The translations under genes were made by a program, and so were the position numbers. This document shows positions 718-18,518 of a stretch of 63,892 nucleotides of DNA, piece after piece. Location: NCBI GenBank assembly GCA_903910555.1, contig CAIVZZ010000027.1:1-63892 (forward strand). Reading direction: 5' to 3'. Source of the stretch: an uncultured Gemmatimonadota bacterium. Lineage in GTDB: Bacteria; Gemmatimonadota; Gemmatimonadetes; Gemmatimonadales; Gemmatimonadaceae. The notes below the pieces were generated by a model. The model ran no database searches. It had not been told where the DNA came from and saw nothing but the letters and a program-made list of their open reading frames with translations. Each line of letters begins with the position of its first letter. The stretch's first letter is position 1.

Positions 718-1410
718 TTAAACCGCCGGTGAATCCTCGCCGGTCGCGCTCAGCACAAATCCGATTCCCCGCCGCGACGTGATCACAACCGTCGCGCCCG
801 CGCCCGCGAGTTTTTTTCGCAGCCGCGTCACGTTCACATCGACGACATTCGTTCCGGGATCGAACGACATGTCCATCACCTTCTCGAGCAGTTCGGTACG
901 CGCGACAACTTCGCCGGTGTGCAGGAGAAAGTGCTCGAGCACTGAGAGCTCGCGCGGCGTGAGGTGCAGCGGCGTCCCCGCAACGAGTGCGATACGCGTC
1001 AGCCGGTTGAGCACAAGATTCCCCGCGCTCAGCTGTTCGGTCCGCCGAGCACCACCGCGCCGCACCAGCGCGCGCACGTGCGCCTTGAACACGTCGAAGT
1101 CGATCGGCTTGGTGAGGTAGTCGTCCGCGCCGGCGTCGAGCGCCATGACGATCGCTTCCCTGTCGGTATTCCCCGTGAGCACGAGCACCGGTGTCGCCCG
1201 GCTCTTTCGGCGCAGCGCCTGAACGAGCGGAATCCCGTTGCCGTCTGGGAGAGCGAGATCGAGAATGATCGCGTCATAGTCGTTCACCATCGCGAGCACA
1301 TTCCCGGACTCGCTCGTTCCGGCGGTGTCGACGGCAAACCCGCCCTCTTCGAGCAGTTTCGTCACCAAGAGGCGGATCGTCGGATCATCATCTATGACGA
1401 GAGCGCGCAC
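718..1410 (-). CDS. OmpR/PhoB-family response regulator
   Basis: This is a two-domain cytoplasmic DNA-binding response regulator of 230 residues, the usual family length. The N-terminal receiver domain (about 1-115) shows the acidic pocket VIDDD at 5-9, the phospho-acceptor Asp51 in ILDLALPDG, the LVLTG switch motif and YLTKPID with the conserved Lys. The C-terminal part (about 130-225) is a winged helix with LTPRELSVLEHFL and VTRLRKKL. No histidine kinase adjoins it, so its partner is elsewhere. It diverges from the fibre-like locus starting at 1619, with inverted repeats between them, and may control that locus; this link is inference. Confidence 0.9.
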   Translation of the reverse strand: MRALVIDDDPTIRLLVTKLLEEGGFAVDTAGTSESGNVLAMVNDYDAIILDLALPDGNGIPLVQALRRKSRATPVLVLTGNTDREAIVMALDAGADDYLTKPIDFDVFKAHVRALVRRGGARRTEQLSAGNLVLNRLTRIALVAGTPLHLTPRELSVLEHFLLHTGEVVARTELLEKVMDMSFDPGTNVVDVNVTRLRKKLAGAGATVVITSRRGIGFVLSATGEDSPAV

Positions 1411-1618: not shown

Positions 1619-2104
1619 ATGAAGACCTCATCCTTCCTCACGATCGGCGCCCTCGTTGCATTTGCCGCGGTCAACACCGCCTCCGCCCAGACGGCGACGC
1701 AGACCGTGACCTTCCAGGTTACCGCGATCAACCAGATCGCCGTCTCCGGTTCTCCGTCACTTGTCATCAACGCAGCCGCAGCCGGCAGCGCGCCGACGTC
1801 GGTCACCGCGAGCGGCAATACCTGGTCGGTCACGACCAACCATAGCACCGCTTCGATCACCGCCAGCATCGCGTCGGCCATGCCCGCCGGCCTGACGCTC
1901 TCCGCCAATCTGAGCGCTCCCGCAGGCGCCACGAGCACCGGCCTGACCGCGCTGGGCGTTACGGCAGTGAATGTTGTCACGGGCATCACGAAGCTGAACT
2001 CGGCCGCACTCGGCCTGACCTACCAGCTCGACGCGACAGCAGCGGCCGGCGTCGTGTCGTCGTCGACGCGCGTCGTGACCTACACGATCACGGGCGGCGT
2101 CTGA
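1619..2104 (+). CDS. Small secreted fibre-subunit-like protein, copy 1
   Basis: This 161-residue exported protein (signal peptide 1-24, ...NTASAQ) is clearly paralogous to the next gene. Both share VSGSP, AAAAGSAP, AMPAG-TL, VTGI-K and a final beta strand TRVVTYTIT. The Ser/Thr/Ala/Val-rich alternating pattern without cysteine suggests an Ig-like beta-sandwich, as in pilin or spore-coat-U-like subunits. ATG at 1619 is chosen because GGAGA at 1605-1609 precedes it and the signal peptide starts there. With the downstream chaperone-like and barrel-like genes it suggests a chaperone-usher-like surface fibre. The family itself is not recognised. Confidence 0.7.
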   Translation: MKTSSFLTIGALVAFAAVNTASAQTATQTVTFQVTAINQIAVSGSPSLVINAAAAGSAPTSVTASGNTWSVTTNHSTASITASIASAMPAGLTLSANLSAPAGATSTGLTALGVTAVNVVTGITKLNSAALGLTYQLDATAAAGVVSSSTRVVTYTITGGV

Positions 2105-2154
2105 TTCGATAACCGCAGCGGCAATAACCAACCCGGTAGTTCGTCCTATATAGT

Positions 2155-2601
2155 ATGAGGTATATGCGACGCACTGCCCTGATTATTGCCGCGGCGTTTT
2201 GGGCGAGGGATGCCCGGGCACAGATCTCCGTGTCCGGCTCCCCAGCCCAGATGACCGTGAACAAGGCCGCGGCAGCGGGTTCAGCGCCGCTGGCGGTGAC
2301 CAACTCCACCACGACGTACACGATCAACAAGCCGTCGGGCGCGAGCAGCTACTCGATCACGGCTCACATCAACATCGCAATGCCGGCCGGTGTGACACTC
2401 GGGATGACACTGGCTGCCGGCAGCACCGGCAGCAGCAGCGGCGAGGTCCTGCTGAACACTTCGGCGCAGACCGTGATGACGGGAATCAAACAAAAGATCA
2501 CCGGCGCGACGATCACGTACACGCTGAGCGCCACAGTCGCGGCAGGCGTCGTTCCGGTGCAAACGCGCGTCGTCACGCTCACCGCAATCACAGTTCCGTA
2601 G
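2155..2601 (+). CDS. Small secreted fibre-subunit-like protein, copy 2
   Basis: This 148-residue exported protein is homologous to the preceding one. It has a signal peptide (ALIIAAAFWARDARAQ), then ISVSGSPAQMTVNKAAAAGSA, a Ser/Thr-rich middle and the closing strand TRVVTLTAIT. It has no cysteine, so the disulfide of classical type-1 pilins is absent. The start is uncertain: ATG at 2155 or ATG at 2164, the latter with GAGG unusually close upstream. It lies 50 bases after copy 1 and 10 before the chaperone-like gene. A duplicated structural subunit, perhaps major and minor, is the likeliest role. Confidence 0.65.
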   Translation: MRYMRRTALIIAAAFWARDARAQISVSGSPAQMTVNKAAAAGSAPLAVTNSTTTYTINKPSGASSYSITAHINIAMPAGVTLGMTLAAGSTGSSSGEVLLNTSAQTVMTGIKQKITGATITYTLSATVAAGVVPVQTRVVTLTAITVP

Positions 2602-2611
2602 GAGCTCAGCC

Positions 2612-3424
2612 ATGAAAAGCCTTCGTCAGCGCCTTGGAGTTCTCTCCGCCGCAATCGCGATCATCGCGCCTGCCGCGGCGCGCGCGCAGATCGCCGTGCT
2701 GAGCAGCACCGTGGAAGAGAAGACTGCCGCGCCCGGCGAGAAGTACACGGGCACGATCATCGTCTCGAACCCGGGCGCCACGCCGCAGGTCGCGCGCATT
2801 TACCAGACGGACTATCGCTTTGCGGCTGACGGCACCGCGCACTACGACGACCCGGGGACGACAACGCGCTCGAACGCATCGTGGATCACTCCGCAGGCGT
2901 CGCGCATCGTGATTCCTCCGAAGTCGCAGGTCGCCGTGCCCTACTCCGTTGCGGTCCCGGTCGGCGATTCGCTGCGCGGAACGTACTGGAGCCTGATCAT
3001 GGTCGAGGGCGCTCCGGTTGAGCCCGCCGCGAATGGCAAAGATGCGAAGCCTGCCGTCGCGATCGGCGCGGTGATGCGCTACGCGGTTCAGCTCGCGACG
3101 CACATTCGCAACTCAGGCACGCGCACGGTGCAGTTCTCAACGCCCGCGCCAAGCAAAGCCGCGAACGGTACGGCGTCACTCGACGTCGACATGACGGACA
3201 CCGGTGAGCGTGCTTTCCGCCCGACGCTCTGGGTGGAAGTGTACGACGCGCAGGGCGTACTGAAAGCAAAGGCGAAGCAAACGCGCGGACTTCTCTACCC
3301 CGGCACCTCACTGCATCAGCATTTCGACCTCGGCTCGCTGCCGAGTGGGACGTATAAGGCGGTGATCTTTGCTGATACTGGTGAAGACGCCGTGTTCGCC
3401 ACGCAATACACCATCACGTATTAA
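2612..3424 (+). CDS. Periplasmic chaperone-like protein (PapD-type fold suspected)
   Basis: This exported protein has 270 residues and a signal peptide 1-25 (...AARAQ). It starts with a beta-rich domain (AVLSSTVEEKTAAPGEKYTG, then IIVSNPG and RIVIPPKSQVAVPYSVAVP), which is the layout of a PapD-like N-terminal Ig domain with its conserved proline-rich strand. A second beta domain follows (about 165-270, ending FADTGEDAVFATQYTITY). GGAG sits just before ATG 2612. It lies between two subunit-like genes and a large barrel-like gene, as chaperones do in chaperone-usher loci. The family assignment comes from pattern and context, not a decisive motif. Confidence 0.6.
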   Translation: MKSLRQRLGVLSAAIAIIAPAAARAQIAVLSSTVEEKTAAPGEKYTGTIIVSNPGATPQVARIYQTDYRFAADGTAHYDDPGTTTRSNASWITPQASRIVIPPKSQVAVPYSVAVPVGDSLRGTYWSLIMVEGAPVEPAANGKDAKPAVAIGAVMRYAVQLATHIRNSGTRTVQFSTPAPSKAANGTASLDVDMTDTGERAFRPTLWVEVYDAQGVLKAKAKQTRGLLYPGTSLHQHFDLGSLPSGTYKAVIFADTGEDAVFATQYTITY

Positions 3425-3434
3425 GCGCCGTCCC

Positions 3435-6176
3435 ATGATTCGCCGTGCTGCTCATCTCGCCACCGTAGCCCTCGCGTTTTTCGCGATGGCGACGGTGGCG
3501 CGTGCGCAGGACGGCGTGAATTCGCAGTTGCAGCTTCGCGCCGCTTCGGCTGCGCGCGCGCAGGTCGACGCGGGAAGCGTGCTGACGTCGGTGTTCACCG
3601 TGAAGAACGCGGGCACCGATACGATTCACGCCCTGCCGACCGTTACAATACCGCGCGGCTGGACCGTCGTGATGGGTAACGCGCCGCTGACACTCGCGCC
3701 CGGCGCGACTGACACATGGCTTGTCGGTATTTCTGTTCCCGCGAGCGCGCCTGCGCAGTCGTACGTCGTGAGCGGTTCACTGGCGGCGGCCGGAATCACG
3801 GTTTCGGATACGATTGCAGTCAGCGTGAACGAGCGACATCTGCTCGAAGTGCTGACGATCGACACACCGGGCTGGGTGATCGCCGGCGCACGCTATGAAT
3901 CGCGTTTCCTCGTGCGCAATCGCGGGAATGTGCAGTCGGTGGTTTCGCTCGCGGGCTCGACGAGCCGCGGAACACGCGTCGAGACGCTGCCGTCTGTGAT
4001 AACGCTCGCGCCTGGCGCGAGCGGCATGGTCACGGTGCGCGTTGCGATGCCGAACACGTTCGACCGCACATCGGACGATGTGCTCGAGCTCAACGTCTCA
4101 GACAAGTCGGATAACTCGGTTCGCGCGATGGCATCGACGCGGACGACGGTCGTGGCGAGCGGCGAAGACAGTCGCTTCACGACAATCCCTGCGATGCTCT
4201 CGCTGCGCTCGATCGGCGCGGCGTCGGGAGTGTCTCCAGTTGCGCTGACCGGCAGCGGATTTCTCGCCGACAACAAGACGACCGTCGATCTGCTCCTGCA
4301 GGCTCCGACAGGACGTCAGACGCCGTTCGGATTTGGTGAGCGCGACGAATATCACGCGAACTTCAAGTCGAATAATTTTTCGCTCAAGCTTGGCGACAAT
4401 CTCTACGGCTTCACCGAGCTCACGTCGAGCGGAACACTCGGGACAGGCGCGGAATATCAGAGCACGCTCGGCCCTCTCGCGGCAGGCGCATTCGCGCAGC
4501 ATGCGCGCTGGGTTCCTGGTGCCGGCGCTGAAGAGGGCGCGTTCCTCGGAACGGCGCGCGACACGATCCATCAGCTGCTCGGAACGTTCGTCGAGCGTCA
4601 GTCGGCCGGCGGCGCGGTGAGCGTCGGCAGCGTGAGCGGACACCAGCAGCTGTTCTCCGGCACCACGCTTCAAGTTGAGATGGCGTCGAGCGACAGCAAT
4701 CACGCGTCCGGTCTCGCCGAGCGCGCACGCATCGTCGGCACGCTGCGCAACGTGAACTACGATTTTGGATTTCTGAACGGAGACGCTGCATTTGCCGGAC
4801 TCGCGCGCGGCACGATGACGGAAGACGGTTCGATTTCCGCACGGCTCGGCAAACAGTTCACGATCGGCGCGTCGGGGAGCGTTCGCGTTTCCAACTACGC
4901 GACGCCGCTCGAAGGAATTCCGGCGCAGCGCTTCTCGACAGCGACGCTGAACGCGAGCTACGGCGGCCTCGCGTCGCTGGAGTACGGCTGGCTTAGCCGC
5001 CACGATGATGGCACGCTCACGGAGCTCGACGGTACGCAGCACGGGCTTCGTGCGAGCACATCGCTTCCGCTTGGACCGGCGAGTCTTTCGCTGAGCTACG
5101 AGCGCGGCACGGTCGATGCAGCACTCGATGCATCGACGCGCACATACGACATCATCTCGATCTCGGCGCAGACAAAACTTTGGAACGCCGGGACACTCTC
5201 GGTGTTTGGCGCGCACGACGACGGCAACACACTCACCGGCGCAACGAGCGGTGTTGCGAACGCCGGCGTGAGTCTCGACCTCCGTCTTCCCCTCTCGCTT
5301 GAGCTCAACCTTTCGACGTCCGCACAGCGCGCAACACTCGGCGTGTTCGATGGATCCGGAGAATGGTTCAGTCAGTCGGACGCGCGCTTGGATTATCGGT
5401 TTGCGGGCGGTCAGTCACTTTCGCTGCGCGAGCGCGTTTGGCAGAACCCAACCATGCAGGGCTCGGCGGATGCGAGCGCGACGTACCTCGAGTTCCGCAC
5501 GCCGATCCGTCTTCCCGTTGGCCCGTCGCACAGTGCGGGGCGCGCGGAAGGAATCATTGTGGATGCCAATAGCGGGAAGCCGGTGGTTGGCGCGCTGGTG
5601 CGCATTGCCGATCAGGCGGCAGTGACCGACAAGGCCGGCCATGTGAGCTTCAGCGGCCTCGCGCCGGCGCATGATCGTGTGTCGATCGACGCGACCGGCG
5701 CGGCAGCAGGGGCGCTGCTCGTTGGCGATGCGTTCGTAGAAATCACCTCGCAGATGACCAAGCCCGCGAAGTTTGCGCTCGCCGTTGCACGTGGCGGCAC
5801 GGTTCGCGCGCTGGTACGCAGGCTCGATGCCTCGAACGGGACGCTCGGCACTGCATCCGCGGACTCGATGGTGACCGTCGGCGTCGAGTCGAATGTTGTG
5901 GTCGCGCTGCAGAGCGGCCGCGATACGATTTATCAGTCGAGCGACGATCGCGGCCGGCTCGATTTCGGTTCGGTTGCGCCGGGAAAATGGACGCTCGTGG
6001 TGATGCCGGGCGACCTGCCGGACCACCATGTGTTCGAGTCCGATCGGATTGAAGTGACCGTACTCCCGGGCGGCCGCAGCGACGTTGACCTGCGCCTGAT
6101 CCCCCAGCGCCGCACGGTGACGTTCATTGGGCACGACGATGTGGCGCTGAAGGCGAAGCCGCTGCCGCAAAAATAA
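3435..6176 (+). CDS. Large beta-barrel protein with Ig-like domains, usher-like
   Basis: This exported protein of 913 residues has a signal peptide (...MATVARAQ). After it come two Ig-like repeats (about 25-250; FTVKNAGTDTIHALP and FLVRNRGNVQSVVSL are alternating-strand signatures). Then follows a long region of short amphipathic strands typical of an outer-membrane barrel (about 285-690), a carboxypeptidase-regulatory-like beta domain (EGIIVDANSGKPVVGALVR, about 695-770) and a C-terminal beta domain. This order resembles a fimbrial usher, but I see no standard usher signature. ATG 3435 is preferred over in-frame codons upstream because the signal peptide begins there. It closes the four-gene locus. 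Confidence 0.65.
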   Translation: MIRRAAHLATVALAFFAMATVARAQDGVNSQLQLRAASAARAQVDAGSVLTSVFTVKNAGTDTIHALPTVTIPRGWTVVMGNAPLTLAPGATDTWLVGISVPASAPAQSYVVSGSLAAAGITVSDTIAVSVNERHLLEVLTIDTPGWVIAGARYESRFLVRNRGNVQSVVSLAGSTSRGTRVETLPSVITLAPGASGMVTVRVAMPNTFDRTSDDVLELNVSDKSDNSVRAMASTRTTVVASGEDSRFTTIPAMLSLRSIGAASGVSPVALTGSGFLADNKTTVDLLLQAPTGRQTPFGFGERDEYHANFKSNNFSLKLGDNLYGFTELTSSGTLGTGAEYQSTLGPLAAGAFAQHARWVPGAGAEEGAFLGTARDTIHQLLGTFVERQSAGGAVSVGSVSGHQQLFSGTTLQVEMASSDSNHASGLAERARIVGTLRNVNYDFGFLNGDAAFAGLARGTMTEDGSISARLGKQFTIGASGSVRVSNYATPLEGIPAQRFSTATLNASYGGLASLEYGWLSRHDDGTLTELDGTQHGLRASTSLPLGPASLSLSYERGTVDAALDASTRTYDIISISAQTKLWNAGTLSVFGAHDDGNTLTGATSGVANAGVSLDLRLPLSLELNLSTSAQRATLGVFDGSGEWFSQSDARLDYRFAGGQSLSLRERVWQNPTMQGSADASATYLEFRTPIRLPVGPSHSAGRAEGIIVDANSGKPVVGALVRIADQAAVTDKAGHVSFSGLAPAHDRVSIDATGAAAGALLVGDAFVEITSQMTKPAKFALAVARGGTVRALVRRLDASNGTLGTASADSMVTVGVESNVVVALQSGRDTIYQSSDDRGRLDFGSVAPGKWTLVVMPGDLPDHHVFESDRIEVTVLPGGRSDVDLRLIPQRRTVTFIGHDDVALKAKPLPQK

Positions 6177-7625: not shown

Positions 7626-8600
7626 ATGCCCCCAGCCGCGCGACCACATCTGATACTCGTGAATCTGGGGACGCCGTCTGAGCCGACGGCGGCGTCTGTG
7701 CGCGCGTTTTTGAGTGAGTTTTTGAGTGATCCTGCGGTAGTGGATATCCCGCGGTTGATCTGGGGGCCGATTCTCAAATTGTTCGTACTTCGGTCGCGGC
7801 CCGCCCGCGTCGCCGAACAGTACGAGAGTATTTGGAGCAACGGTGGATCGCCGCTGCGTGTTGCCACCGAGCGGATGACGAGCGCGGTGCGCGAGAAAGC
7901 CGCTGACGGGTTCACTGTGAGCTGGGCATTTCGCTACGGTGAGCCGTCGCTCGAATCAGAAATGCGGCGACTCGCGCGCGAATCGAACGGCCCGATTGTG
8001 GTCGTGCCGCTCTTTCCGCAGCGAACTGACGCAACGACCGGCACCGCATTCTCTCGTGCGCGCAAAGCGGCGGTGAGCGCAGGTATCTCGGATCGATATC
8101 GCGAGGCGCTCGTCGCGCCGGCCGACGATGGCTACATCGCGGCGCTTGCCGCACGCTGGAAGGAAACGCTCGACGCATGCGACGTGCCGCCGGAACATCT
8201 CGTGATTTCGTTTCACGGAATTCCCGTGCGGTACGATCGTCGCGAACGGCAGCAATACACGCGCGACTGCGAAGAAACCGCAGCTGCTCTCCTCGTGACG
8301 ATCGACTGGCCCACCGAAAAAGCGACGCTCGCCTATCAGTCGAAGTTCGGCCCCGAGCCGTGGCTCACCCCCGCGACGGCCACGGTGATTGAAGAGCTCG
8401 CGCGCGCGGGCACGCGCCGCGTGGCCGTGATCACACCGGGATTCCTCACGCACGGGCTCGAGACACTCGAGGAAATCGGCATTCGCGCGCAAGAGAGTTT
8501 CATTCACGCCGGCGGCGAGGAGCTCGTGCTGGTCGGCACCGTCGAAGATCATCCCGCCATGATCGATTCACTCACACGACTCGGCACGTGCACCGCATAG
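7626..8600 (+). CDS. hemH: Ferrochelatase
   Basis: HemH inserts Fe2+ into protoporphyrin IX, the last step of protoheme synthesis. The 324-residue length is typical. Recognised features are the N-terminal LILVNLGTPSEP, the SNGGSPL loop, the metal-site His in VISFHGIPVRYD and the LETLEEIGI segment carrying the conserved Glu. It is the first gene of the heme operon although it acts last; its end overlaps hemA by 13 bases. No ribosome binding site is obvious before ATG 7626. The preceding 140 bases contain degenerate TGGCGA-type repeats and no other gene. Confidence 0.95.
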   Translation: MPPAARPHLILVNLGTPSEPTAASVRAFLSEFLSDPAVVDIPRLIWGPILKLFVLRSRPARVAEQYESIWSNGGSPLRVATERMTSAVREKAADGFTVSWAFRYGEPSLESEMRRLARESNGPIVVVPLFPQRTDATTGTAFSRARKAAVSAGISDRYREALVAPADDGYIAALAARWKETLDACDVPPEHLVISFHGIPVRYDRRERQQYTRDCEETAAALLVTIDWPTEKATLAYQSKFGPEPWLTPATATVIEELARAGTRRVAVITPGFLTHGLETLEEIGIRAQESFIHAGGEELVLVGTVEDHPAMIDSLTRLGTCTA

Positions 8601-9928
8601 GCGTCGTGGGGATCAACTGGCGCCAGCAGCGCGGCACGTTGCTGGACGAGCTCACGATTCCGCGTGATGCGCGAATCGAGCGACTCCCCGCGTTGCGCGA
8701 ACAGTCGGGCGTCGAAGAACTCGTTTATATCGCGACCTGCAATCGCGTGGAAGTCGCCTTCGCCACTGACGGAAATATTCCGATCGACGATTGCCGCCGC
8801 CGGATCTTTGAGCTGCTCATCGGCCGCGAGGCGGTGGCGGGTGAAGCCGAGCGCGCGATGCGCGCGTGGCACGGCGAGGGCGCGGCCGAGCATTTGTTCG
8901 TCGTGGCGTCGGGGCTCGATTCCGCGCGAATCGGTGAGAGTGAAATCGCCGGACAGATTCGCGATGCGCTGGCCGACGCGACGGCTGCAGGGACTGCGGG
9001 ACCGCGGCTCGATCGCGTCTTCACCGAGGCGCTGCGCGTGGCGAAGCGCGTGAAGCCGATGACCGAAGGGCGCATCGGCACGGTCTCGCTGGCGGAGATC
9101 GCTGAGCGACACGTCGCCGAACGCGCATTGCGCACTCGGGGCAGCGTTGCGGTGATCGGCGTATCGCCGATGACGGCGCAGTGTGCACGATCGCTCGCTG
9201 CGCGCGGTATTCGCGTGCTCGTGGTGAACCGCACGCTGAGCAAAGCCGAAGCGCTTGCAACCGAGGTGCATGGAGAAGCTCGCTCGCTCGATGCCTTTCG
9301 CGCATCGCCTGACGCTGTCGAAGCGCTGATCCTCGCGACCGGAGCGAAGGAGCCGGTGCTCGGGCGGTCAGAACTCGAACGTATTTCCGCGCGCACGCCG
9401 TCGGGTGAGCCGCCGCTGCTGGTCGACCTCGGCGTTCCGCCGAATGTCTCCCCTGACGTTGCGGCGGCGGCGGATGTCACGCGTATCGGGATGGATCGCA
9501 TCAGCGAGGAAGCGGCCGAGGACAGAGACCGGCTGCTGCTCGATTTCGCGGACGCGCGTGAAGTCATCGACGATGCAGTGGTGGAGTTCCGCAGACAGAC
9601 CGCCGAACGGCTCGTCGGCCCGGTGATCGCGCAGCTGCGACTGAGCTATCGGCGGTCGGCGCTCGAGGGTGTTGACCGGCTGCTCGCGAAATCGCTTCCC
9701 GGGCTGGCAGAAGCAGATCAAGAAGTGCTGCGCCGCTGGGCGGAGACGCTCGCCAATCGCCTCGCGCACGTGCCTTCGATCGGACTGCGCGATCTCGCGT
9801 TCGCTGCGGGCCCATCGGCTGTCGAAGCGTTCTTCGAAAGCGCTGATCCTGCGCTCCGTGAATCGCTTGCGACCGCTGGCGATCGTGCCGACGCGGAAAC
9901 GCTTCAGCCGGAAGTGATCGAGCCATGA
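8588..9928 (+). CDS. hemA: Glutamyl-tRNA reductase
   Basis: HemA reduces glutamyl-tRNA(Glu) to glutamate-1-semialdehyde with NADPH, committing to tetrapyrroles. The catalytic Cys51 lies in YIATCNRVE. ASGLDSARIGESEI is the tRNA/substrate-binding block, the Rossmann segment around 190-215 (SVAVIGVSPMTAQ) binds NADPH, and a C-terminal dimerisation helix follows. Length 446. The start is GTG at 8588 inside the end of hemH, which puts GVVGIN at the N-terminus. The usual N-terminal HKTAP-type motif is replaced by WRQQRGTLLDEL, an odd feature. It overlaps hemC by ATGA. It depends on charged tRNA, so gltX must be elsewhere. Confidence 0.93.
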   Translation: MHRIGVVGINWRQQRGTLLDELTIPRDARIERLPALREQSGVEELVYIATCNRVEVAFATDGNIPIDDCRRRIFELLIGREAVAGEAERAMRAWHGEGAAEHLFVVASGLDSARIGESEIAGQIRDALADATAAGTAGPRLDRVFTEALRVAKRVKPMTEGRIGTVSLAEIAERHVAERALRTRGSVAVIGVSPMTAQCARSLAARGIRVLVVNRTLSKAEALATEVHGEARSLDAFRASPDAVEALILATGAKEPVLGRSELERISARTPSGEPPLLVDLGVPPNVSPDVAAAADVTRIGMDRISEEAAEDRDRLLLDFADAREVIDDAVVEFRRQTAERLVGPVIAQLRLSYRRSALEGVDRLLAKSLPGLAEADQEVLRRWAETLANRLAHVPSIGLRDLAFAAGPSAVEAFFESADPALRESLATAGDRADAETLQPEVIEP

Positions 9929-10848
9929 AGATCCGAATCGGCACGAGAGGATCGGCGCTGGCGCTCGCGCAAAGCAACGACGTCGCGGCGCGACTCCGTG
10001 CGAAGGGACACGAGCCGGAAATCGTGATCGTGTCGACGACGGGCGACCGTGTAACCGATCGGGCGTTTGTTGAAGTCGGATCGTTTGGCGTGTTCGTGCG
10101 CGAACTTGAAAATGCACTGCTCGACGGGACGATCGATGCCGCCGTGCACTCATACAAAGACGTGCCGTCGCGTATGCCGGCCGGTCTCGTGATTGCAGCC
10201 GTCCCCGAGCGCGTCGACGCCGCTGATGTCTTGTTGGTGCGGCGCCCGGCGCTCACTGAAGAACGCAGCGGGCTGCCGCTCGCGATCGGCGCGAGGGTTG
10301 GGACGTCGGCCACGCGTCGGCGCGCGCTCTTGCTGGCCGCGCGACCCGATCTCGACATCGGCTTGCTCCGCGGCAATGTGCCGACGCGAGTGCGCGCATT
10401 GAGCGAGGGAAAGTTCGATGCAATCGTCCTTGCCGCAGCCGGCCTCGACCGGCTCGCGCGTGCCGAAGGAGACAGTCGCCTCACCCTCGGACCGGATATC
10501 GTGAGTGTGCGCTTGGACCCTGCCACCTTCGTCCCCGCCCCGTCGCAGGGTGCCATTGCCGTGCAGGTGCGTGAAAGCGGCACGGACGTCCGCGCGGCAA
10601 TAACTTCACTCGACGATTCGTCGTGTCGTCTCGCCGTGCAAACAGAACGTGCGGCGCTCTATCTGGCAGACGGCGGGTGCACACTGCCGTTTGGTGCATG
10701 GTGCAGCGTGACGAACGACACGCTGACACTGACGGTCGCTCTCGGCCTGGAGGACGGAACAGTCATGCGAAGTGCGGCCACTGGAACAGATCCACAAACG
10801 GTAGCGGCAGCGGGTTGGGCCGGCGTGTCGGGCGGAGTGAGCGCATGA
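9925..10848 (+). CDS. hemC: Hydroxymethylbilane synthase (porphobilinogen deaminase)
   Basis: HemC joins four porphobilinogens into the linear tetrapyrrole hydroxymethylbilane. The 307 residues match the family. MKIRIGTRGSALALAQ is diagnostic. HSYKDVPS carries the catalytic Asp79, LLRGNVPTRV lies in the substrate cleft, and Cys252 in ADGGCTLPFGA is where the dipyrromethane cofactor attaches. It overlaps hemA before it and hemD after it by ATGA, so translational coupling is likely. Confidence 0.96.
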   Translation: MKIRIGTRGSALALAQSNDVAARLRAKGHEPEIVIVSTTGDRVTDRAFVEVGSFGVFVRELENALLDGTIDAAVHSYKDVPSRMPAGLVIAAVPERVDAADVLLVRRPALTEERSGLPLAIGARVGTSATRRRALLLAARPDLDIGLLRGNVPTRVRALSEGKFDAIVLAAAGLDRLARAEGDSRLTLGPDIVSVRLDPATFVPAPSQGAIAVQVRESGTDVRAAITSLDDSSCRLAVQTERAALYLADGGCTLPFGAWCSVTNDTLTLTVALGLEDGTVMRSAATGTDPQTVAAAGWAGVSGGVSA

Positions 10849-11591
10849 GCGCCGCACCCCTCGCGGGACGCCGCGTACTCGTCACGCGCGCGATCGAAGA
10901 CTCTGGTATCTGGGCCACGCGCCTTATCGCGCTCGGAGCGGAAGCAGTGATTCTTCCGTGCATCAATACCGAGTTCTTTCACGACGACGACACGCGCACG
11001 CGTCTCGATGCGGCGCTGAGCGATGCGGACTGGCTCTGCATCACTTCTGCGCGCTGCGCAGACGCCGTCGCGCGACTCACCGATATTTTCTCGGCGCATG
11101 CCTCGCCGGCGATTCGTGTCGCGGCAGTTGGTGGCGCGACTGCGGCCGCGGTGCGCACGCAGCTCGGCTGCACACCGTTCGTCGCGCGCGGCGGCACATC
11201 GCGCACGCTCGGCGAAGAACTCCTCAGCGAACTCGCCCCGCCGCCGGCCGTTTCGAAAATCGTGGTGGCCGGTGCACAAGACGGGCGTGCGGATCTCGAA
11301 GAGGTTCTCACACCGAGCGGCGCGATCGTTACGCGAGTGGATGTGTATCGGACGGTCGCAGCCGAACGAGTTGGGCCGGCACTTGACCTCTCCGCTGAAA
11401 ACATCAGCGATGTGGTTCTGGCGAGCCCGTCCGCGGTTCACGGTTGGCTCAACCAGGTGTCGTCGCCATCGAGCGTTCGGATCTTCACGATCGGACCGAC
11501 CACCAGCGAGGCGGTTGTCGCGGCTGGGTACACAGTGGCAGGCGAAGCAGTGCACCCAACTTTCGACTCCCTCGTGGAGGCCATGCAATGA
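10845..11591 (+). CDS. hemD: Uroporphyrinogen-III synthase
   Basis: HemD cyclises hydroxymethylbilane and inverts ring D to give uroporphyrinogen III. The 248 residues fit the two-lobed fold: VLVTRAIEDSGIWATRL at the start, SARCADAVARL and VAAVGGATAAAV in the cleft, and FTIGPTTSEAVVAAGY near the end. The sequence is poorly conserved in general, so position between hemC and hemB strengthens the call. ATG 10845 overlaps the hemC stop, and its own stop overlaps the hemB start. Confidence 0.92.
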   Translation: MSAAPLAGRRVLVTRAIEDSGIWATRLIALGAEAVILPCINTEFFHDDDTRTRLDAALSDADWLCITSARCADAVARLTDIFSAHASPAIRVAAVGGATAAAVRTQLGCTPFVARGGTSRTLGEELLSELAPPPAVSKIVVAGAQDGRADLEEVLTPSGAIVTRVDVYRTVAAERVGPALDLSAENISDVVLASPSAVHGWLNQVSSPSSVRIFTIGPTTSEAVVAAGYTVAGEAVHPTFDSLVEAMQ

Positions 11592-12607
11592 GCGAATGGA
11601 ACGCGTCCGCTGAGCGCGAGCTCGCGACGCCCGGCCCTTTACGTCCGCGCCGTTTGCGGAACAGCGCGGCGATGCGCGAACTCGTCGCAGAGACCACCGT
11701 GCTCGCTCGGCAACTCGTGATGCCGCATTTCGTGTTGCCCGCGGCGAAAGCCAACGAGCCGATTCCATCGATGCCCGGGATCTCGCGCACCGGCGTCGAC
11801 GATCTGCTGCGCGCTGTTGAGTCCGATCACAAGCTCGGCATTAAATCGGTGCTCTTGTTTGGCACGCCGCCCGCCGGCGCGAAGAACTCCACCGGCAGCA
11901 GTGCGAGCGACCGCGAAGGCGCTGTGCCGCGTGCCGTCCGCGCTCTGCGTGGCGCCTTTGGCGGCGACCTCGTGATCATGACCGACGTGTGCCTCTGCGC
12001 GTACACGGATCACGGCCACTGCGGCGTTCTGCTCGACGGCGCAGTCGACAACGATCGCTCGCTTGTCCCGCTCGCGGCGATGGCGCTCGCGCACGCGGAG
12101 GCCGGCGCCGATCTCGTCGCGCCCTCCGACATGATGGACGGTCGCGTCGGTGCACTGCGCAGCGCGCTCGATGCCGATGGCTTCACGAGCACCGGAATTC
12201 TTTCGTACGCCGTGAAATACGCGTCGGCGTACTACGGTCCCTTCCGCGATGCAGCCGATTCGTCGCCGCAGCATGGTGATCGCCGCAGCTATCAAATGGA
12301 CTCACGTAACTCCGCCGAAGCAGAACGCGAAGTAAAGCTCGACGAAGCCGAAGGTGCGGACATGGTCATGGTGAAGCCCGCGCTCGCCTACCTCGACATC
12401 ATTCGCCGCGTGCGTGCGGTGACCACACTCCCGCTCGCCGCGTACAACGTGTCCGGTGAATACTCGGCGGTGAAGGCCGCGGCCGAACGCGGCTGGCTCG
12501 ATGAAGCGGCGATCGTGCGCGAGAATCTTCACGCGATGGTGCGCGCAGGTGCCGATATCGTGATCACGTATCACGCGCGTGCTGCATTGGCCGGGAGATG
12601 GATTTGA
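11588..12607 (+). CDS. hemB: Porphobilinogen synthase (ALA dehydratase)
   Basis: HemB condenses two 5-aminolevulinate molecules to porphobilinogen. Length is 339, as usual. The zinc-type metal site is present as DVCLCAYTDHGHCG (Cys135, Cys137, Cys145), so this is a zinc enzyme rather than the Asp-rich Mg form. The two Schiff-base lysines are Lys210 (SYAVKYAS) and Lys263 (MVMVKPAL). The start ATG 11588 overlaps the hemD stop; its 3' end overlaps hemL by 10 bases. Confidence 0.97.
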   Translation: MSEWNASAERELATPGPLRPRRLRNSAAMRELVAETTVLARQLVMPHFVLPAAKANEPIPSMPGISRTGVDDLLRAVESDHKLGIKSVLLFGTPPAGAKNSTGSSASDREGAVPRAVRALRGAFGGDLVIMTDVCLCAYTDHGHCGVLLDGAVDNDRSLVPLAAMALAHAEAGADLVAPSDMMDGRVGALRSALDADGFTSTGILSYAVKYASAYYGPFRDAADSSPQHGDRRSYQMDSRNSAEAEREVKLDEAEGADMVMVKPALAYLDIIRRVRAVTTLPLAAYNVSGEYSAVKAAAERGWLDEAAIVRENLHAMVRAGADIVITYHARAALAGRWI

Positions 12608-13899
12608 GCGCCGGTCCGAAGTCCACAGCGTTGATGGCGCGCGCCGAGCGTGTGATGCCGGGCGGCGTGAGCTCGCCTGTGCGCGCGTTTCGCGCGGTTG
12701 GCGGGACGCCACTCGTGTTGCGTTCCGGCTCGGGCGCGGAGTTCGAGGATGTCGACGGCAAGCGGTATATCGATTTTGTGTGCTCGTGGGGCCCGCTGAT
12801 TCTCGGACACGCGCATCCGGACGTGATACGAGCGATTGTCGATACCGCCGCGCACGGAACGAGCTTCGGGGCGCCGTGCGAACAGGAGATCGAGCTCGCA
12901 GAGTATTTGACGTCGAGCTATCCCGGTCTCGAGCAGGCGCGATTCGTTTCGTCTGGCACGGAAGCGACGATGAGCGCGATTCGCGTCGCGCGCGGTGCGA
13001 CCGGGCGCGACAAGATTGTGAAGTTCTCGGGATGCTATCACGGGCACGCCGATCACCTGCTTGTGGCGGCGGGATCCGGTCTCGTGACATTTGGCCGGCC
13101 CTCTTCGGCCGGCGTGCCGGAAGCGTTCGTGCGCGAGACGATCGTGCTGCCGCTCGATGACGAGCAGCGGTTGATCGATCTCCTTCGCCGCGACGGCGAC
13201 AAAATCGCCGCGGTGATCATCGAGCCGGTGCCTGCGAACAACGGCCTTCTGCTTCAGCGCCCGGAGTTCCTCGCAACACTTCGAACGGAAACGGAGCGAG
13301 CCGGCACGCTTCTGATATTTGACGAGGTGATCAGCGGATTCCGCCTCGCGCGCGGCGGAGCGGCTGAGATTTTCGGCATCACACCCGATCTTGCGACGTT
13401 CGGAAAAGTGATCGGCGGCGGAATGCCTGTTGGCGCGTTCGGCGGGCGGCGCGATCTCATGAAGAACCTCGCACCGCTCGGCGGCGTCTATCAGGCCGGT
13501 ACGCTCTCGGGCAACGCGGTCGCGATGGCCGCAGGGCTCGCCCAGCTGCGCACGCTTGAGCGTGAAAAAGGATGGACGCGACTCGAAGAGACGGGACGTC
13601 AGCTCGAGGCACTGCTCAAGCCCGTGCTCGCGGCTGCGCCGTACGGCGCTCAGCTCGTGCGCATCGGCTCACTCTTTTGGATATCGCTTCAGGACGGCCC
13701 CGCACCGCGATCCGCCGAAGCAATCGATTCAACGGCGGCCGACCGCTATCGGCCAATCTTTCACGCGTTGCTCGACGGCGGCATCGCGCTCGCACCGTCC
13801 GCGTTCGAGGCCGGATTTTTGTCTCTCGCGCACACGACGGCGCATCTCGAACGGCTTCGCGATTCGCTGGCCGCTGCGTTCGAGGCCGCTCGCACGTGA
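12598..13899 (+). CDS. hemL: Glutamate-1-semialdehyde 2,1-aminomutase
   Basis: HemL is a PLP enzyme that moves the amino group of glutamate-1-semialdehyde to make 5-aminolevulinate. The 433 residues include MPGGVSSPVRAF, SSGTEATMSAIRVAR (phosphate binding), GCYHGHAD, FDEVISGFR and the PLP lysine Lys270 in TFGKVIGGGMPVGA. Together with HemA it shows that this organism uses the C5 route to ALA. It overlaps hemB upstream and the membrane regulator gene downstream. Confidence 0.97.
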   Translation: MDLSAGPKSTALMARAERVMPGGVSSPVRAFRAVGGTPLVLRSGSGAEFEDVDGKRYIDFVCSWGPLILGHAHPDVIRAIVDTAAHGTSFGAPCEQEIELAEYLTSSYPGLEQARFVSSGTEATMSAIRVARGATGRDKIVKFSGCYHGHADHLLVAAGSGLVTFGRPSSAGVPEAFVRETIVLPLDDEQRLIDLLRRDGDKIAAVIIEPVPANNGLLLQRPEFLATLRTETERAGTLLIFDEVISGFRLARGGAAEIFGITPDLATFGKVIGGGMPVGAFGGRRDLMKNLAPLGGVYQAGTLSGNAVAMAAGLAQLRTLEREKGWTRLEETGRQLEALLKPVLAAAPYGAQLVRIGSLFWISLQDGPAPRSAEAIDSTAADRYRPIFHALLDGGIALAPSAFEAGFLSLAHTTAHLERLRDSLAAAFEAART

Positions 13900-14675
13900 C
13901 CGAGCTCGATACGCGACGCGCCGCGCGCGCGACGCAGATTGGTTTTCTCGTGCTGCTCCTCGCCTGCACGGCGCAGCTCGCATACTGGATGGCGGACGAA
14001 TATCGCTTCACGGAGTCTGTGCGCGATTCACACCGCGAGTCATATGAAGGCGAGGCGCGTTCTGCGGTAGCACTGCTTGGCGCCGGTGTTCCATGGGCGA
14101 CGATTGCGTCGCGATCGCCCGAGCTTGAGTTAGGTGCGAACGGCGTGCCGCAGGTGTCTGCGGCCGCACTGGAGCGCCTCGACGCCGACCGCTTTCACCG
14201 CATGAATCGCTACGGCTGGGAAGGTGCATTCTTTCTCGCTGTGCTGGTCGCTGCGATCGGAATGGTGTACGCGGCACTGCGCAAAGAACGCCAGCCCATG
14301 CACGAGATTCTTGCACAGCGCGCGCGTGAGGACGAACTCGCCGCGGTGGAACCGGTTTTGAAGTTCGGCGGAAGTGAATTCAACCTCCGCACGCATCGCG
14401 CCCGCTCCGCCGATGGCGCGGAGCAAATGCTCTCTGAAAAGGAAGCAATGCTTCTGAAGGCACTGGCCGATCGCCGCGGTGAAGTCGTGCTGCGCGACGA
14501 TATTCTCGAAGAAGTCTGGGGCGACGAAGTTTTGCCATCGTCGCGCACGGTCGATGGTTTTATTGTGCGACTTCGCAAACGGTTCGAGCCGAATCCCGAG
14601 CGGCCGCAATTCATTCACACTGTTCGGGGGGTGGGCTATCGCTTCACCGCCACCGCGGAGTCGCCACACGGATGA
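13896..14675 (+). CDS. Membrane-bound winged-helix regulator within heme operon
   Basis: This 259-residue protein has two membrane segments (about 15-33 and 107-127) around a roughly 70-residue extracytoplasmic loop, then a linker and an OmpR/PhoB-type winged helix (about 155-252: LSEKEAMLLKALADRRGEVV, SRTVDGFIVRLRKRF, HTVRGVGYRF). There is no receiver and no kinase domain, so it resembles ToxR/CadC-style one-component regulators, but with the DNA-binding domain at the C-terminus behind a kinase-like sensor. GTG 13896 overlaps the hemL stop, and ATGA links it to hemE. Control of heme genes in response to an envelope signal is an inference from location. Confidence 0.8.
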   Translation: MTELDTRRAARATQIGFLVLLLACTAQLAYWMADEYRFTESVRDSHRESYEGEARSAVALLGAGVPWATIASRSPELELGANGVPQVSAAALERLDADRFHRMNRYGWEGAFFLAVLVAAIGMVYAALRKERQPMHEILAQRAREDELAAVEPVLKFGGSEFNLRTHRARSADGAEQMLSEKEAMLLKALADRRGEVVLRDDILEEVWGDEVLPSSRTVDGFIVRLRKRFEPNPERPQFIHTVRGVGYRFTATAESPHG

Positions 14676-15739
14676 GTTCGCCCACTGCTACCCTCGCGAA
14701 AACAACGCCGGTCTCAGCCGGCCGCGACCTCTTTCTGGACGCGATCGCGTGCAAGGAGACCGCGCGCCGTCCGCTCTGGATCATGCGGCAGGCCGGCCGC
14801 TATCTGCCGGAGTATCGTGCGTTGCGCGTGAAGCACACGTTCGAGCAGCTCTCTGGTAACGCCGAGCTCGCCGCGGAAGTCACGCTGCAGCCGCTGGCGC
14901 GCTTTCCGCTCGACGCGGCAATTGTCTTTGCGGATTTGATGAGCCCGGTCGCGTCGCTCGGGTTGGAAGTGAAATTCGCGCCGGGGCCTGTGCTATCGAA
15001 GCCTGTACGCACTGCGGCCGATGTCGCGACGCTGCGCACGCCTGCACGCGCTGAGATCGCGCCCGAAGTGATGGGTGCGCTGCGCATTGTGAAGAGGGAA
15101 ATCGGCAGCAAGCAGGCGTTGCTCGGATTTGCGGGATCGCCCTGGTCTATTGCCGCATATCTCGTGCAGGGCAGAGGCGAGCGCGGCTTCCCCGCCCTGC
15201 GCACGCTCACGGCCGCCGATCCGAAAGTCATCGACGCGCTGCTCACGAAACTCACCGACCTGATCATCGAGTACGTTCACGCGCAGTTCGAAGCGGGTGC
15301 CGATGCAGTTCAGCTCTTTGATACGTGGGCCGGCATTCTCTCGTTCGACAAATGGACGAGCCTTGTGCGCCCTCACATCGCGCGCTTTCTCGACGAAACG
15401 CGAAGCGCCGGCAAGCCGCGCATTTTGTTTGTGCAGGACGCGTCGCAGCTCGTGGGTGGCTATGCCGCACTTCCAAGCGAAGCGCTCGCGGTCGATTGGC
15501 GCGAAGATCTCCCTGCGCTCCGCCGCTCGCTCGGCGCCACCAAGGCGCTGCAGGGCAATCTCGACCCTGCCATTCTTGTCGCCGGGCCGGAGGCGACGCG
15601 TGCCGCCGCGAAAGCACTGCTCGCGGCTGTGCCGGCGCGCGGCCACATCATGAATCTCGGCCACGGCATCACGCCCGACGCGCCGATCGAAAGCGTGCAG
15701 GCGATCGTCGATGTCGTGCACGCGGAGAACGCATCGTGA
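14672..15739 (+). CDS. hemE: Uroporphyrinogen decarboxylase
   Basis: HemE removes four carboxyl groups from uroporphyrinogen III to give coproporphyrinogen III, without a cofactor. The 355-residue protein has the signature RRPLWIMRQAGRYLPEYR near the N-terminus, FADLMSPV with the active-site Asp, GFAGSPWSIAAYLVQG and the C-terminal MNLGHGITPDAPIE. It overlaps the membrane regulator by ATGA and the hemN start by GTGA. Confidence 0.97.
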   Translation: MSSPTATLAKTTPVSAGRDLFLDAIACKETARRPLWIMRQAGRYLPEYRALRVKHTFEQLSGNAELAAEVTLQPLARFPLDAAIVFADLMSPVASLGLEVKFAPGPVLSKPVRTAADVATLRTPARAEIAPEVMGALRIVKREIGSKQALLGFAGSPWSIAAYLVQGRGERGFPALRTLTAADPKVIDALLTKLTDLIIEYVHAQFEAGADAVQLFDTWAGILSFDKWTSLVRPHIARFLDETRSAGKPRILFVQDASQLVGGYAALPSEALAVDWREDLPALRRSLGATKALQGNLDPAILVAGPEATRAAAKALLAAVPARGHIMNLGHGITPDAPIESVQAIVDVVHAENAS

Positions 15740-17145
15740 CGGCGACCAGCTCACGTCCGGTCTCGCGCGCGGTCACCGTCGATCTCCTGTCGCGCTATGA
15801 TCGTCCCGGCCCGCGCTACACGAGCTACCCGACCGCCGTTGAGTTTCACGAGGGCGTCACCGAGCGCGACTATCTCGACTGCCTCGCGGAAGCGAATGCG
15901 ATGGGCGACGCTCCGCTTTCGCTCTACATGCATCTGCCGTTCTGCGAGGAGCGCTGCCTCTTCTGCGGGTGCCACACGATCATCACGCGACATAAAGAAG
16001 TCGCGGTGCCGTACCTCGGGCTTATCGGTCGCGAGATCGAGCTGCTCGCGGAACAGCTGCCTGATCGCCGGCACTTTGCACAGCTGCATTTGGGCGGCGG
16101 CACGCCCACGTATTACACGCCGGCGCAGCTCGATGGATTAGTCGGCGGCCTGCTCAAAAAGTTCACGCCGTTGCCCGGCGCGGAGCTCGCGTTCGAGGCG
16201 GATCCGCGCGTGACAACGAGCGAGCATCTCGATACGCTCGCTGCGCTTGGGTTCAATCGCGTGTCATTCGGCGTGCAGGATTTGAATCTCGAAGTGCAGG
16301 AAGCGATCAACCGCGTGCAGACGCGCGAACAGACCGCGCGCCTCGTTGATCACGCACGGGCAAAGGGGTATCGCGGCATCAACGTCGATCTCATTTACGG
16401 GCTCCCGCTGCAGACGCCTGAGACATTTGAGAAAACGGTTGATTCGGTGATCGCCCTCGGGCCGGATCGCGCCGCTGTGTATTCGTTCGCGTTCGTGCCG
16501 TGGGTGAAAGGGAGCCAGAAGAAGATCGAGCAGGAAGACCTTCCTGCTGCTGACGTCAAAGTCCAGCTCTTTGCGATCGCGCGCGAGCGCTTTCTCGCCG
16601 CCGGATACGAACCGATCGGCATGGATCACTTCGCGCGCCCGGATGACGATCTCGCCATTGCGCGGCGCGAAGGAAAACTCCGCCGAAATTTCCAGGGCTA
16701 CGCTGTGATTCCGGGAGATGACGTCGTCGGACTTGGCGTCTCCGCGATCGGCGACGTGCGCGGAAGCTATTTCCAGAACGAGAAGAAACTCTCTGCATAC
16801 GAGGAGATTATTTCCTCGGGCCGGCTCTCCGTGTATCGCGGCGTGAAGCGCTCCGCTGACGACGAGATCCGTCGCACGGTGATTCACGAACTGATGTGCA
16901 ATTTCCGCGTGGACGCGGGCCAGATCGAGCGTCAATACGGCATTGAGTTCAGCAAGTACTTTGCCGATGACATCGCGCTGCTCGCCCCGCACGAGCGCGA
17001 CGGCATGGTCAACGTGACTTCGCGCGGGATAGAGGCAACGCCCGTCGGCGAATTGTTCGTCCGCAATCTCGCGATGTGCTTCGATCGATATCAGCGGGAA
17101 AAGCACGCGACCGATTCCAAGCCCGTCTTCAGTCGCACGGTCTGA
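15736..17145 (+). CDS. hemN: Oxygen-independent coproporphyrinogen III dehydrogenase
   Basis: HemN is a radical SAM enzyme that decarboxylates coproporphyrinogen III to protoporphyrinogen IX without O2. The N-terminal GPRYTSYPTAVEF separates true HemN from HemW. The cluster motif is CEERCLFCGC (CxxxCxxC plus an extra Cys), followed by LHLGGGTPTYYTP. The 469 residues match the family. GTG 15736 overlaps the hemE stop. No oxygen-dependent HemF is in the cluster, so this step can run without oxygen, while the next enzyme (HemY type) normally uses O2. Confidence 0.95.
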   Translation: MTATSSRPVSRAVTVDLLSRYDRPGPRYTSYPTAVEFHEGVTERDYLDCLAEANAMGDAPLSLYMHLPFCEERCLFCGCHTIITRHKEVAVPYLGLIGREIELLAEQLPDRRHFAQLHLGGGTPTYYTPAQLDGLVGGLLKKFTPLPGAELAFEADPRVTTSEHLDTLAALGFNRVSFGVQDLNLEVQEAINRVQTREQTARLVDHARAKGYRGINVDLIYGLPLQTPETFEKTVDSVIALGPDRAAVYSFAFVPWVKGSQKKIEQEDLPAADVKVQLFAIARERFLAAGYEPIGMDHFARPDDDLAIARREGKLRRNFQGYAVIPGDDVVGLGVSAIGDVRGSYFQNEKKLSAYEEIISSGRLSVYRGVKRSADDEIRRTVIHELMCNFRVDAGQIERQYGIEFSKYFADDIALLAPHERDGMVNVTSRGIEATPVGELFVRNLAMCFDRYQREKHATDSKPVFSRTV

Positions 17146-17147
17146 CA

Positions 17148-18518
17148 TTGCCCCGTCTTGTTGTAGTCGGCGCTGGAATCTCCGGGCTCGCTGCGGCGTG
17201 GTCGGCGCATGCCGTTGCCGCGCGCGCGGGCATGACGCTCGACGTGCTTGTTCTCGAGGGCGAAAGCGAAGTCGGCGGGAAGGCGCGCACCATCACGCGC
17301 GATGGCTGGATGGTCGAGGCCGGGCCGTCGGGATTCCTGGGCGGCCGCGCGGAGCTCGACACTCTCATTACTGCAAGCCAGCTCGGCGCAGCCGTGATTC
17401 CGGCGAACGCGGCAGCGAAGCGGCGCTTCGTCTATCGCGCCGGGAAACTGCGCGAACTCAAGCCATCGCCTGTCGGACTCGCATTCTCCGGCATCCTGAG
17501 CCCGGGCGGCCTGCTTCGACTTGCCTTGGAACCGTTTATCGCGCGGTCGGAGAGCAAGAAAGATGAATCGGTCTGGGCGTTCGCCGAGCGTCGCTTCGGG
17601 AGTGAAGCCGCCGATCGCCTGATGGCGCCGGCCACCCTCGGGGTGTTCGCGGGCGACGCGCGCAAATTGTCGGTCGGTTCCGGATTCCCGAAATTTCGAG
17701 AACTCGAGCGAGAGCATGGTTCGTTGATCCGCGGCATATTCGCACGCCGCGGACGGGGGCGTGCAGGTGGCCTCACGTCGTTCCGCGAAGGAATGCAGAG
17801 CTTGCCTCGCGAACTTTCGGAGAGCGGCGCCTTCAAAGTGCGGTGCAACGCGCTTGTGCGCGGCATCGAGCGAACAGCCACAGGGTGGACCGTGGCTGTT
17901 GATGGCGACAGTGCACCGATCAACGCCGATGCGGTGATCGTCGCGACGGAGCCCTGGGCCGCGGCGCCGCTGGTGCAGCACCTCGACGCAGCAGCGGCCG
18001 CCGCGCTCAAGGCGATTCCCTGCCCTCACGTCACTGTCGTCGCGCTCGGATACGACTCGAGTGTACGCGCACGAATCCCTGACGGCTTCGGCGTGCTCAT
18101 TTCGCGCGGCGAAGGAATTCGCATGCTCGGAAATCTCTGGGAGACGTCGATATATCCCGGTCGTGGTCCATCGGGCGGGATCCTTGTGCGCGCGTTACTC
18201 GGCGGCGCGGTCGATCAGGAGATCGGTTCGCTCGACGACTCTGAAGTGCTCGCGTTGGCGAAGACTGAGATCGCGAAACTGTACGGCCTGACCGCGGAGC
18301 CGGTGTTCACCGAAGTCATTCGCATCGACGGTGCGATCCCGCAGTATGAGATCGGTCACGCGCGCCGCGTCGCGGCTGTCGAGCACGCGGTAGACGCCAT
18401 CCCGGGCCTGGGAATCACCGGCTACGGTCTGCGCGGCGTAGCGTTTGGCGATGCAGCGGCAGATGGCATGCACACCGGTGAAAAAATCGGCGCTTGGCTG
18501 GCAGCGTCGGCTATGTAA
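17148..18518 (+). CDS. hemY: Protoporphyrinogen oxidase (FAD-dependent)
   Basis: HemY-type oxidase converts protoporphyrinogen IX to protoporphyrin IX. The FAD-binding dinucleotide motif VVVGAGISGLAAAW opens the protein, followed by VGGKARTI and EAGPSGFLG. The C-terminus has the FAD block GITGYGLRGVAFGDAAADG. TTG 17148, two bases after the hemN stop, gives a normal N-terminus of 456 residues; ATG 17076 would add 24 unlikely residues overlapping hemN, so the start is not certain. The product feeds HemH, the first gene of the operon. The 3' end overlaps the convergent flavin monooxygenase gene by 8 bases. Confidence 0.92.
   Translation: MPRLVVVGAGISGLAAAWSAHAVAARAGMTLDVLVLEGESEVGGKARTITRDGWMVEAGPSGFLGGRAELDTLITASQLGAAVIPANAAAKRRFVYRAGKLRELKPSPVGLAFSGILSPGGLLRLALEPFIARSESKKDESVWAFAERRFGSEAADRLMAPATLGVFAGDARKLSVGSGFPKFRELEREHGSLIRGIFARRGRGRAGGLTSFREGMQSLPRELSESGAFKVRCNALVRGIERTATGWTVAVDGDSAPINADAVIVATEPWAAAPLVQHLDAAAAAALKAIPCPHVTVVALGYDSSVRARIPDGFGVLISRGEGIRMLGNLWETSIYPGRGPSGGILVRALLGGAVDQEIGSLDDSEVLALAKTEIAKLYGLTAEPVFTEVIRIDGAIPQYEIGHARRVAAVEHAVDAIPGLGITGYGLRGVAFGDAAADGMHTGEKIGAWLAASAM

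Follow-up and report, generated by a model that had tools for sequence, protein, structure and literature searches.

Four consecutive genes, termed here A, B, C and D, lie at positions 1619-6176 of a 63,892-nucleotide stretch of DNA from an uncultured Gemmatimonadota bacterium (contig CAIVZZ010000027.1; hereafter the window), and probably encode a divergent chaperone-usher-type machine building a thin surface fibre. This view is supported by a conserved operon, by the chaperone fold of C and by the usher-sized barrel and usher-like layout of D, as well as by a pattern in which one subunit is devoid of an N-terminal extension and by the amphipathic pattern of both candidate strands, the one of A and the one of C.

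A sequence-only reading of this DNA had described the genes as encoding two related, small cysteine-free exported proteins followed by one resembling a PapD-type chaperone and a large one with Ig-like domains, a probable barrel and C-terminal beta domains, none of them with a classical signature. Four open reading frames on the forward strand were indeed found (Table 1), separated by 50 bp (A-B), 10 bp (B-C) and 10 bp (C-D), and forming a tight operon. None of the four proteins contains a cysteine, each starts with a hydrophobic signal-like segment (modelled as a helix at residues 2-23 in C and 5-27 in D), and A and B share 49% identity over 122 amino acids (tblastn E 1e-18). Among known families, Pfam and NCBIfam gave no match over cut-off for A, B or C and only two for D, both generic (NPCBM_assoc at residues 45-115 and CarboxypepD_reg at 705-758), while the positive controls FimC and FimD were detected strongly in the same library. 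The observation made in the sequence-only reading was confirmed.

Gene order and distribution

A match to D is present in 13 of 149 related genomes, and the order subunit(s)-C-D is kept in the 11 loci of relatives examined, each locus having one or two A genes. When 84,980 species genomes were scanned with the C alignment, 73 loci were returned, a number that undercounts the system as the scan relied on short peptide patterns. A relative of D is found directly 3' of C in 70 of the 73 (in one of the remaining three, the contig ends at C), and in 68 of the 71 loci with room to see it, the gene next to C on the upstream side encodes a subunit. The chaperone-usher gene order noticed in the window is hence conserved far beyond the genus. 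As named in the genome records, the hosts include Gemmatimonadota, Bacteroidota with Rhodothermales and Ignavibacteria, Deltaproteobacteria, Aminicenantes, Riflebacteria, Planctomycetes, Armatimonadetes, Verrucomicrobiota, Atribacteria, Zixibacteria, Elusimicrobia (Elusimicrobiota), purple sulfur Gammaproteobacteria (Thiocapsa), Bipolaricaulota, Synergistaceae, Treponema and other spirochaetes, Halanaerobiales (Orenia) and several 'Bacillota' metagenome-assembled genomes; most of the named hosts belong to lineages known to have an outer membrane, which agrees with a chaperone-usher-type fibre. Moreover, the C profile matched 77 of the 298 genomes of a phylum sample, many of them only distantly.

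Because this order recurs both in relatives and in distant loci, the four-gene feature is not due to chance. That the genes are unrelated neighbours, a porin with immunoglobulin (Ig)-like domains lying beside small beta-rich secreted proteins, is highly improbable: the lack of any classical signature in the four proteins and the generic porin-like barrel families matched by some D members would fit such a view, but the same gene order is met in loci from a score of lineages, across phyla.

An additional copy of the system is located on plasmid 2 of Deinococcus deserti, where the genes are annotated as a hypothetical protein, a 'FimB/Mfa2 family fimbrial subunit' and a 'carboxypeptidase regulatory-like' protein. 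The second name, given by RefSeq to the C homologue (L118, 5983-6753), for which the Pfam Mfa2 match is borderline only, is probably a misannotation. The genome studied here also contains a second, very divergent C-D pair (L100, 4523-9049; contig C1, about 226.5-231.0 kb), recognized by the C profile (E 4e-13) and the D profile (E 3e-16) and preceded by two small exported proteins that match neither the A nor the B profile. Judging from these profile matches, this pair may represent a second class of the system.

Subunits A and B

The family profiles of A and B match each other with a probability of 99.7% (2% for the reversed control), and iterative profiles retrieved ~185 subunits in the loci. 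A-type orthologues are present in nearly all related loci, often in multiple copies; one Armatimonadetes locus (L057, 1122-6273) carries seven tandem A-type genes and one B-type gene. With its length taken as the distance between the predicted cleavage site, placed by a simple and crude signal-peptide rule, and the beginning of the shared core, the A-type extension spans 15-20 residues (consensus TATQTVTFxVxAIN) with full hydrophobic alternation, while B-type proteins have 1-5 residues and start nearly at the core, even in Gemmatimonadota, in which the A and B cores are close paralogues. In A, positions V30, F32, V34 and A36 are hydrophobic in 100, 100, 100 and 80% of 35 homologues, respectively, with polar residues in between, and this strand is not found in B.

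The position of the gene follows the same division. Indeed, the subunit adjacent to C has no extension in 52 of 66 loci and the other subunits have one in 71 of 81 (Fisher p 1e-16, the loci being treated without correction for relatedness). Exactly one extension-less subunit is encoded in 59 of 71 loci; its gene lies downstream of D in three loci of Bacteroidota (L073, L083 and L093). In donor-strand fibres, every subunit except the tip needs an N-terminal extension. For this reason, the pattern is the strongest evidence for polymerization that can be drawn from sequences, and it is the one expected of donor-strand fibres with one tip subunit. Searches of the subunit profiles against solved structures gave no match, and a match to FimA obtained with hhalign was confined to the signal peptide and was not counted as a relationship.

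The chaperone-like protein C

Structures of C (68 homologues in the alignment) and D (55 homologues) were modelled with AlphaFold2 (AF2), each protein singly. The model of C (predicted local distance difference test, pLDDT, 94; predicted template modelling score, pTM, 0.85) contains two Ig-like domains. Its top Foldseek matches are WxLIP structures of Enterococcus faecium (9i25 and 9i1y, E 6e-13 to about 1e-12), followed at E 1e-8 to 1e-6 by the chaperone-usher chaperones CfaA (3e-8), CsuC (4e-8), YadV, CupB2 and Caf1M, with other Ig-fold proteins interspersed among them. The structural comparison VIA gave a similar picture, with Z 17.4 for WxLIP (root-mean-square deviation, rmsd, 6.1; 230 residues aligned), 13.3 for CfaA, 12.5 for FimC and 12.2 for CsuC. 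By Foldseek and VIA, the fold matches to these three chaperones span residues 25-270, and the model of C has the PapD-like two-domain Ig fold expected of a periplasmic chaperone.

The sequence-only reading had seen in C a PapD-type protein, which holds for the fold and not for the kinship, as C is most closely related to the Gram-positive protein WxLIP and not to PapD. The C profile picks up WxLIP by sequence (E 6.7e-6) and 19 of 68 C members match Pfam WxLIP_PGBD, the window C itself having no DUF916 match; the PapD family is absent from the latter and from the 25 families listed for the 68 C homologues. C appears to be a remote homologue of WxLIP in both sequence and fold. Divergent C-D pairs were also seen elsewhere in Gemmatimonadota (L101, L102, L103, L104 and L105). 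The C protein of L101 has a weak PapD_N match (E 0.006) and, on this sequence match, could possibly be a bridge to classical chaperones.

The loop between strands 124-133 and 156-165 is the lowest-confidence part of mature C in the model. Hydrophobic residues alternate along the loop and the following strand (149, 151, 155, 157, 159 and 161), and Arg156 is invariant (68 of 68 sequences). Read by eye, this segment would correspond in place and pattern to the G1 donor strand of PapD, including the basic residue by which that strand binds a carboxylate. In a published AF2 complex, a strand of WxLIP fills a gap in the WxL beta-sandwich and completes it (PMC10599100).

The genes could also be a Gram-negative counterpart of the WxL complex, in which C, as a WxLIP-like partner, would stay bound to A and B, and D would be the outer-membrane anchor displaying them, with no polymerization. 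We regard this as rather unlikely. It would agree with WxLIP being the closest relative of C in structure and sequence, and WxL clusters too have small and large WxL proteins beside WxLIP (PMC10599100). However, C has no C-terminal membrane helix and ends in a beta strand in the model, D is usher-like, up to seven A-type copies are found in one locus, and display alone leaves unexplained an amphipathic N-terminal strand borne by most subunits but not by one per locus.

The usher-like protein D

The model of D (pLDDT 86.9, pTM 0.61) comprises Ig-like strands, 26 consecutive strands and two beta domains, and on this basis D would have the layout of an outer-membrane usher, i.e., a large barrel with an N-terminal periplasmic domain and two C-terminal domains. 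The best bacterial structural matches by Foldseek, both nearly full length, are FimD, in first place (E 4.5e-13 over 792 columns), and PapC, a little further down (E 5.8e-11); most of the rows between and below these ushers belong to Ig-repeat proteins from the central apparatus of cilia. The TM-scores are low (0.2-0.3), which means that the domains do not superpose together as a single rigid unit. In the VIA comparison, which weighs the barrel, D matched the PapC pore with Z 16.8 (rmsd 5.9, 345 aligned), and FimD and PapC taken over their whole length scored Z 13-15. Since general porins reach Z 14-16, the barrel fold alone is not specific for ushers, and the likeness of D to ushers is argued from the predicted domain layout and the operon together. 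According to the model, the barrel is at least usher-sized and may have 26 rather than 24 strands.

The sequence links of D to ushers are weak. A profile comparison with six K-12 ushers reached a probability of 69% (0.7% for the reversed control), and CooC_C, a domain of alternative ushers, was matched weakly by two D members (best E 0.006). CarboxypepD_reg is present in 34 of 34 members and NPCBM_assoc in 30 of 34. PF00577, PapC_N and PapC_C are absent from D and, like the TcfC domain, from the 25 families listed for 34 D homologues; the whole genome contains no classical usher (PF00577). The D barrel profile did not match LptD, FhuA or BamA.

The large barrel of D and the chaperone-like C would also suit an export system without fibre, in which A and B, secreted by D, end up as individual soluble or surface proteins and C is an ordinary periplasmic chaperone, all the more so as the polymerization that we propose is inferred. 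We consider it very unlikely, since the extension pattern with its hydrophobic alternation is a hallmark of donor-strand polymers and since D has a FimD-like layout with C-terminal beta domains.

Weighing of the evidence and proposed mechanism

Several observations count against a chaperone-usher-type fibre. The closest relative of C, WxLIP, is known as a protein of the cell wall and not as a pilus chaperone. None of A-D matches a PapD, Usher or pilin family of Pfam. For D, the pTM makes the placement of the domains uncertain, the top VIA match is MtrB (Z 20.3, rmsd 4.8, 410 aligned), which is not an usher, the barrel profile gave no match with single ushers, and the barrel has no inserted plug domain, with successive predicted strands at most ~15 residues apart. 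Finally, 10 loci encode no extension-less subunit.

On balance, the sequence-only reading is largely supported, since none of the three outcomes that would have refuted it (no Ig-like chaperone fold, no barrel of usher size, no conserved gene order) was observed. By sequence, A-D are not members of the PapD and Usher families or of any described class. For D, the Ig-like domains, the usher-sized barrel, the C-terminal beta domains and the FimD and PapC matches agree with what had been proposed, except that the barrel has no plug and perhaps 26 strands. The system lies outside the described chaperone-usher families because it has neither their sequence definitions nor the plug. No earlier description of such a system was found in the open-access full text of PubMed Central, a coverage that leaves out bioRxiv and subscription journals.

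For a chaperone-usher-type fibre, the following mechanism can be proposed, in which we infer the fold of the subunits, strand donation and exchange, secretion through D, polymerization into a fibre, surface location and function. A and B would be exported by Sec as incomplete Ig-like subunits. In the periplasm, C would bind each of them and lend its post-loop strand (residues about 147-163) to complete their fold, before handing them to D, the large outer-membrane barrel. There, donor-strand exchange would take place, the N-terminal strand of the next A displacing the one lent by C, and the chain would thread outward. B, having no N-terminal strand, would go first and form the tip, with A polymerizing behind it. 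Adhesion or biofilm formation would be likely uses of the fibre.

A broader proposal, to which we give less than even credit, is that of a further and very widespread class of chaperone-usher fibres whose chaperone shares ancestry with WxLIP. In that case, a single ancient donor-strand machinery would have given rise both to the WxL surface system and to chaperone-usher pili, and the N-terminal Ig domains would gate an usher whose barrel is plugless and probably has 26 strands.

A chaperone-usher-type fibre would extend the chaperone-usher principle to many little-studied outer-membrane lineages, link Gram-positive WxL surface proteins to pilus assembly and give a testable identity to three protein families without Pfam name, in a system missed by standard annotation. 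It would also raise the question of how an usher without inserted plug stays closed.

Genomic context

Table 1. Features of the fibre operon and its putative regulator (window coordinates).
Feature	Position	Strand	Length or basis
Gene A, exported fibre subunit with N-terminal extension, putative major subunit	1619-2104	+	161 amino acids
Candidate donor strand of A, residues 24-38, QTATQTVTFQVTAIN	1688-1732	+	alternating hydrophobics V30, F32, V34, A36
Gene B, exported paralogue of A without N-terminal extension, probable tip (first) subunit	2155-2601	+	148 amino acids
Gene C, periplasmic chaperone-like protein, two Ig-like domains	2612-3424	+	270 amino acids; AF2 and Foldseek
Loop and strand of C, residues 134-165, in a position resembling that of the F1-G1 loop and G1 donor strand of PapD	3011-3106	+	AF2 model, alignment
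Gene D, usher-like, predicted outer-membrane protein	3435-6176	+	913 amino acids; AF2 and Foldseek
N-terminal pair of Ig-like domains of D, residues 30-245	3522-4169	+	model strands; NPCBM_assoc
Barrel of D, 26 consecutive strands, residues 248-697, without inserted plug	4176-5525	+	AF2, VIA
C-terminal pair of beta domains of D, residues 704-893	5544-6113	+	CarboxypepD_reg; CooC_C weakly
OmpR-type response regulator, divergent, probable operon regulator	718-1410	-	adjacency here and in relatives

The OmpR-type regulator is also adjacent and divergent in five relatives (L016, L018, L022, L023 and L035; 53-92% identity). In two Desulfobacterota-type loci (L047 and L050), a response-regulator-like protein of ~400 amino acids with an NtrC-like ending is encoded ~2.7 kb upstream of C. 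Scanning the operon for promoters and terminators gave scores not above those of shuffles. Judged by translations only, an apparent haem biosynthesis run (ferrochelatase, hemA, hemC, hemD, hemB, hemL, hemE, hemN and protoporphyrinogen oxidase) lies 3' of the fibre operon (7626-18518), and an apparent selA (selenocysteine synthase, 56902-58275) suggests that the organism has selenoproteins.

Comparison with known systems

With classical pili (FimACD, PapDC), the system shares the subunit-chaperone-usher gene order, a two-domain Ig chaperone with a long F1-G1-like loop, an usher-sized barrel followed by two C-terminal beta domains, and subunits both with and without N-terminal extension. It differs from them by the absence of any Pfam PapD, Usher, PapC_N or PapC_C match, by the two Ig-like domains that D has where ushers have their N-terminal domain, by a plugless barrel with ~26 predicted strands instead of 24 and by a tip candidate, B, made of a single domain. 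One-domain subunits are also known from the polyadhesins (Saf, Afa/Dra, F1), whose subunits are small and some of which have a one-domain tip without N-terminal extension; this general likeness is not accompanied by any sequence relation that we could find.

Regarding alternative (CFA/I, ECP) and archaic (Csu) pili, CfaA and CsuC come closest, among true pilus chaperones, to the fold of C, and C-terminal domains of the CarboxypepD_reg and CooC_C types link D to EcpC and CooC, whereas TcfC is not among the families listed for D and no convincing profile alignment was obtained. Chaperone-usher pili have been described as restricted to Proteobacteria, Cyanobacteria and Deinococcus-Thermus, the range also given for the archaic systems (PMC4654587), which is much narrower than that of the system described here.

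With the Gram-positive WxL/WxLIP (DUF916-DUF3324) proteins, the likeness lies in C, apparently a remote homologue of WxLIP, one strand of which is predicted to fill up the WxL sandwich (PMC10599100). In contrast to that system, C is devoid of a membrane helix, no WxL model is matched by A or B, and the operon almost always encodes an outer-membrane barrel. The four genes most likely represent a class that resembles chaperone-usher systems and would work like chaperone-usher assembly, with a chaperone related to WxLIP and a large barrel without plug.

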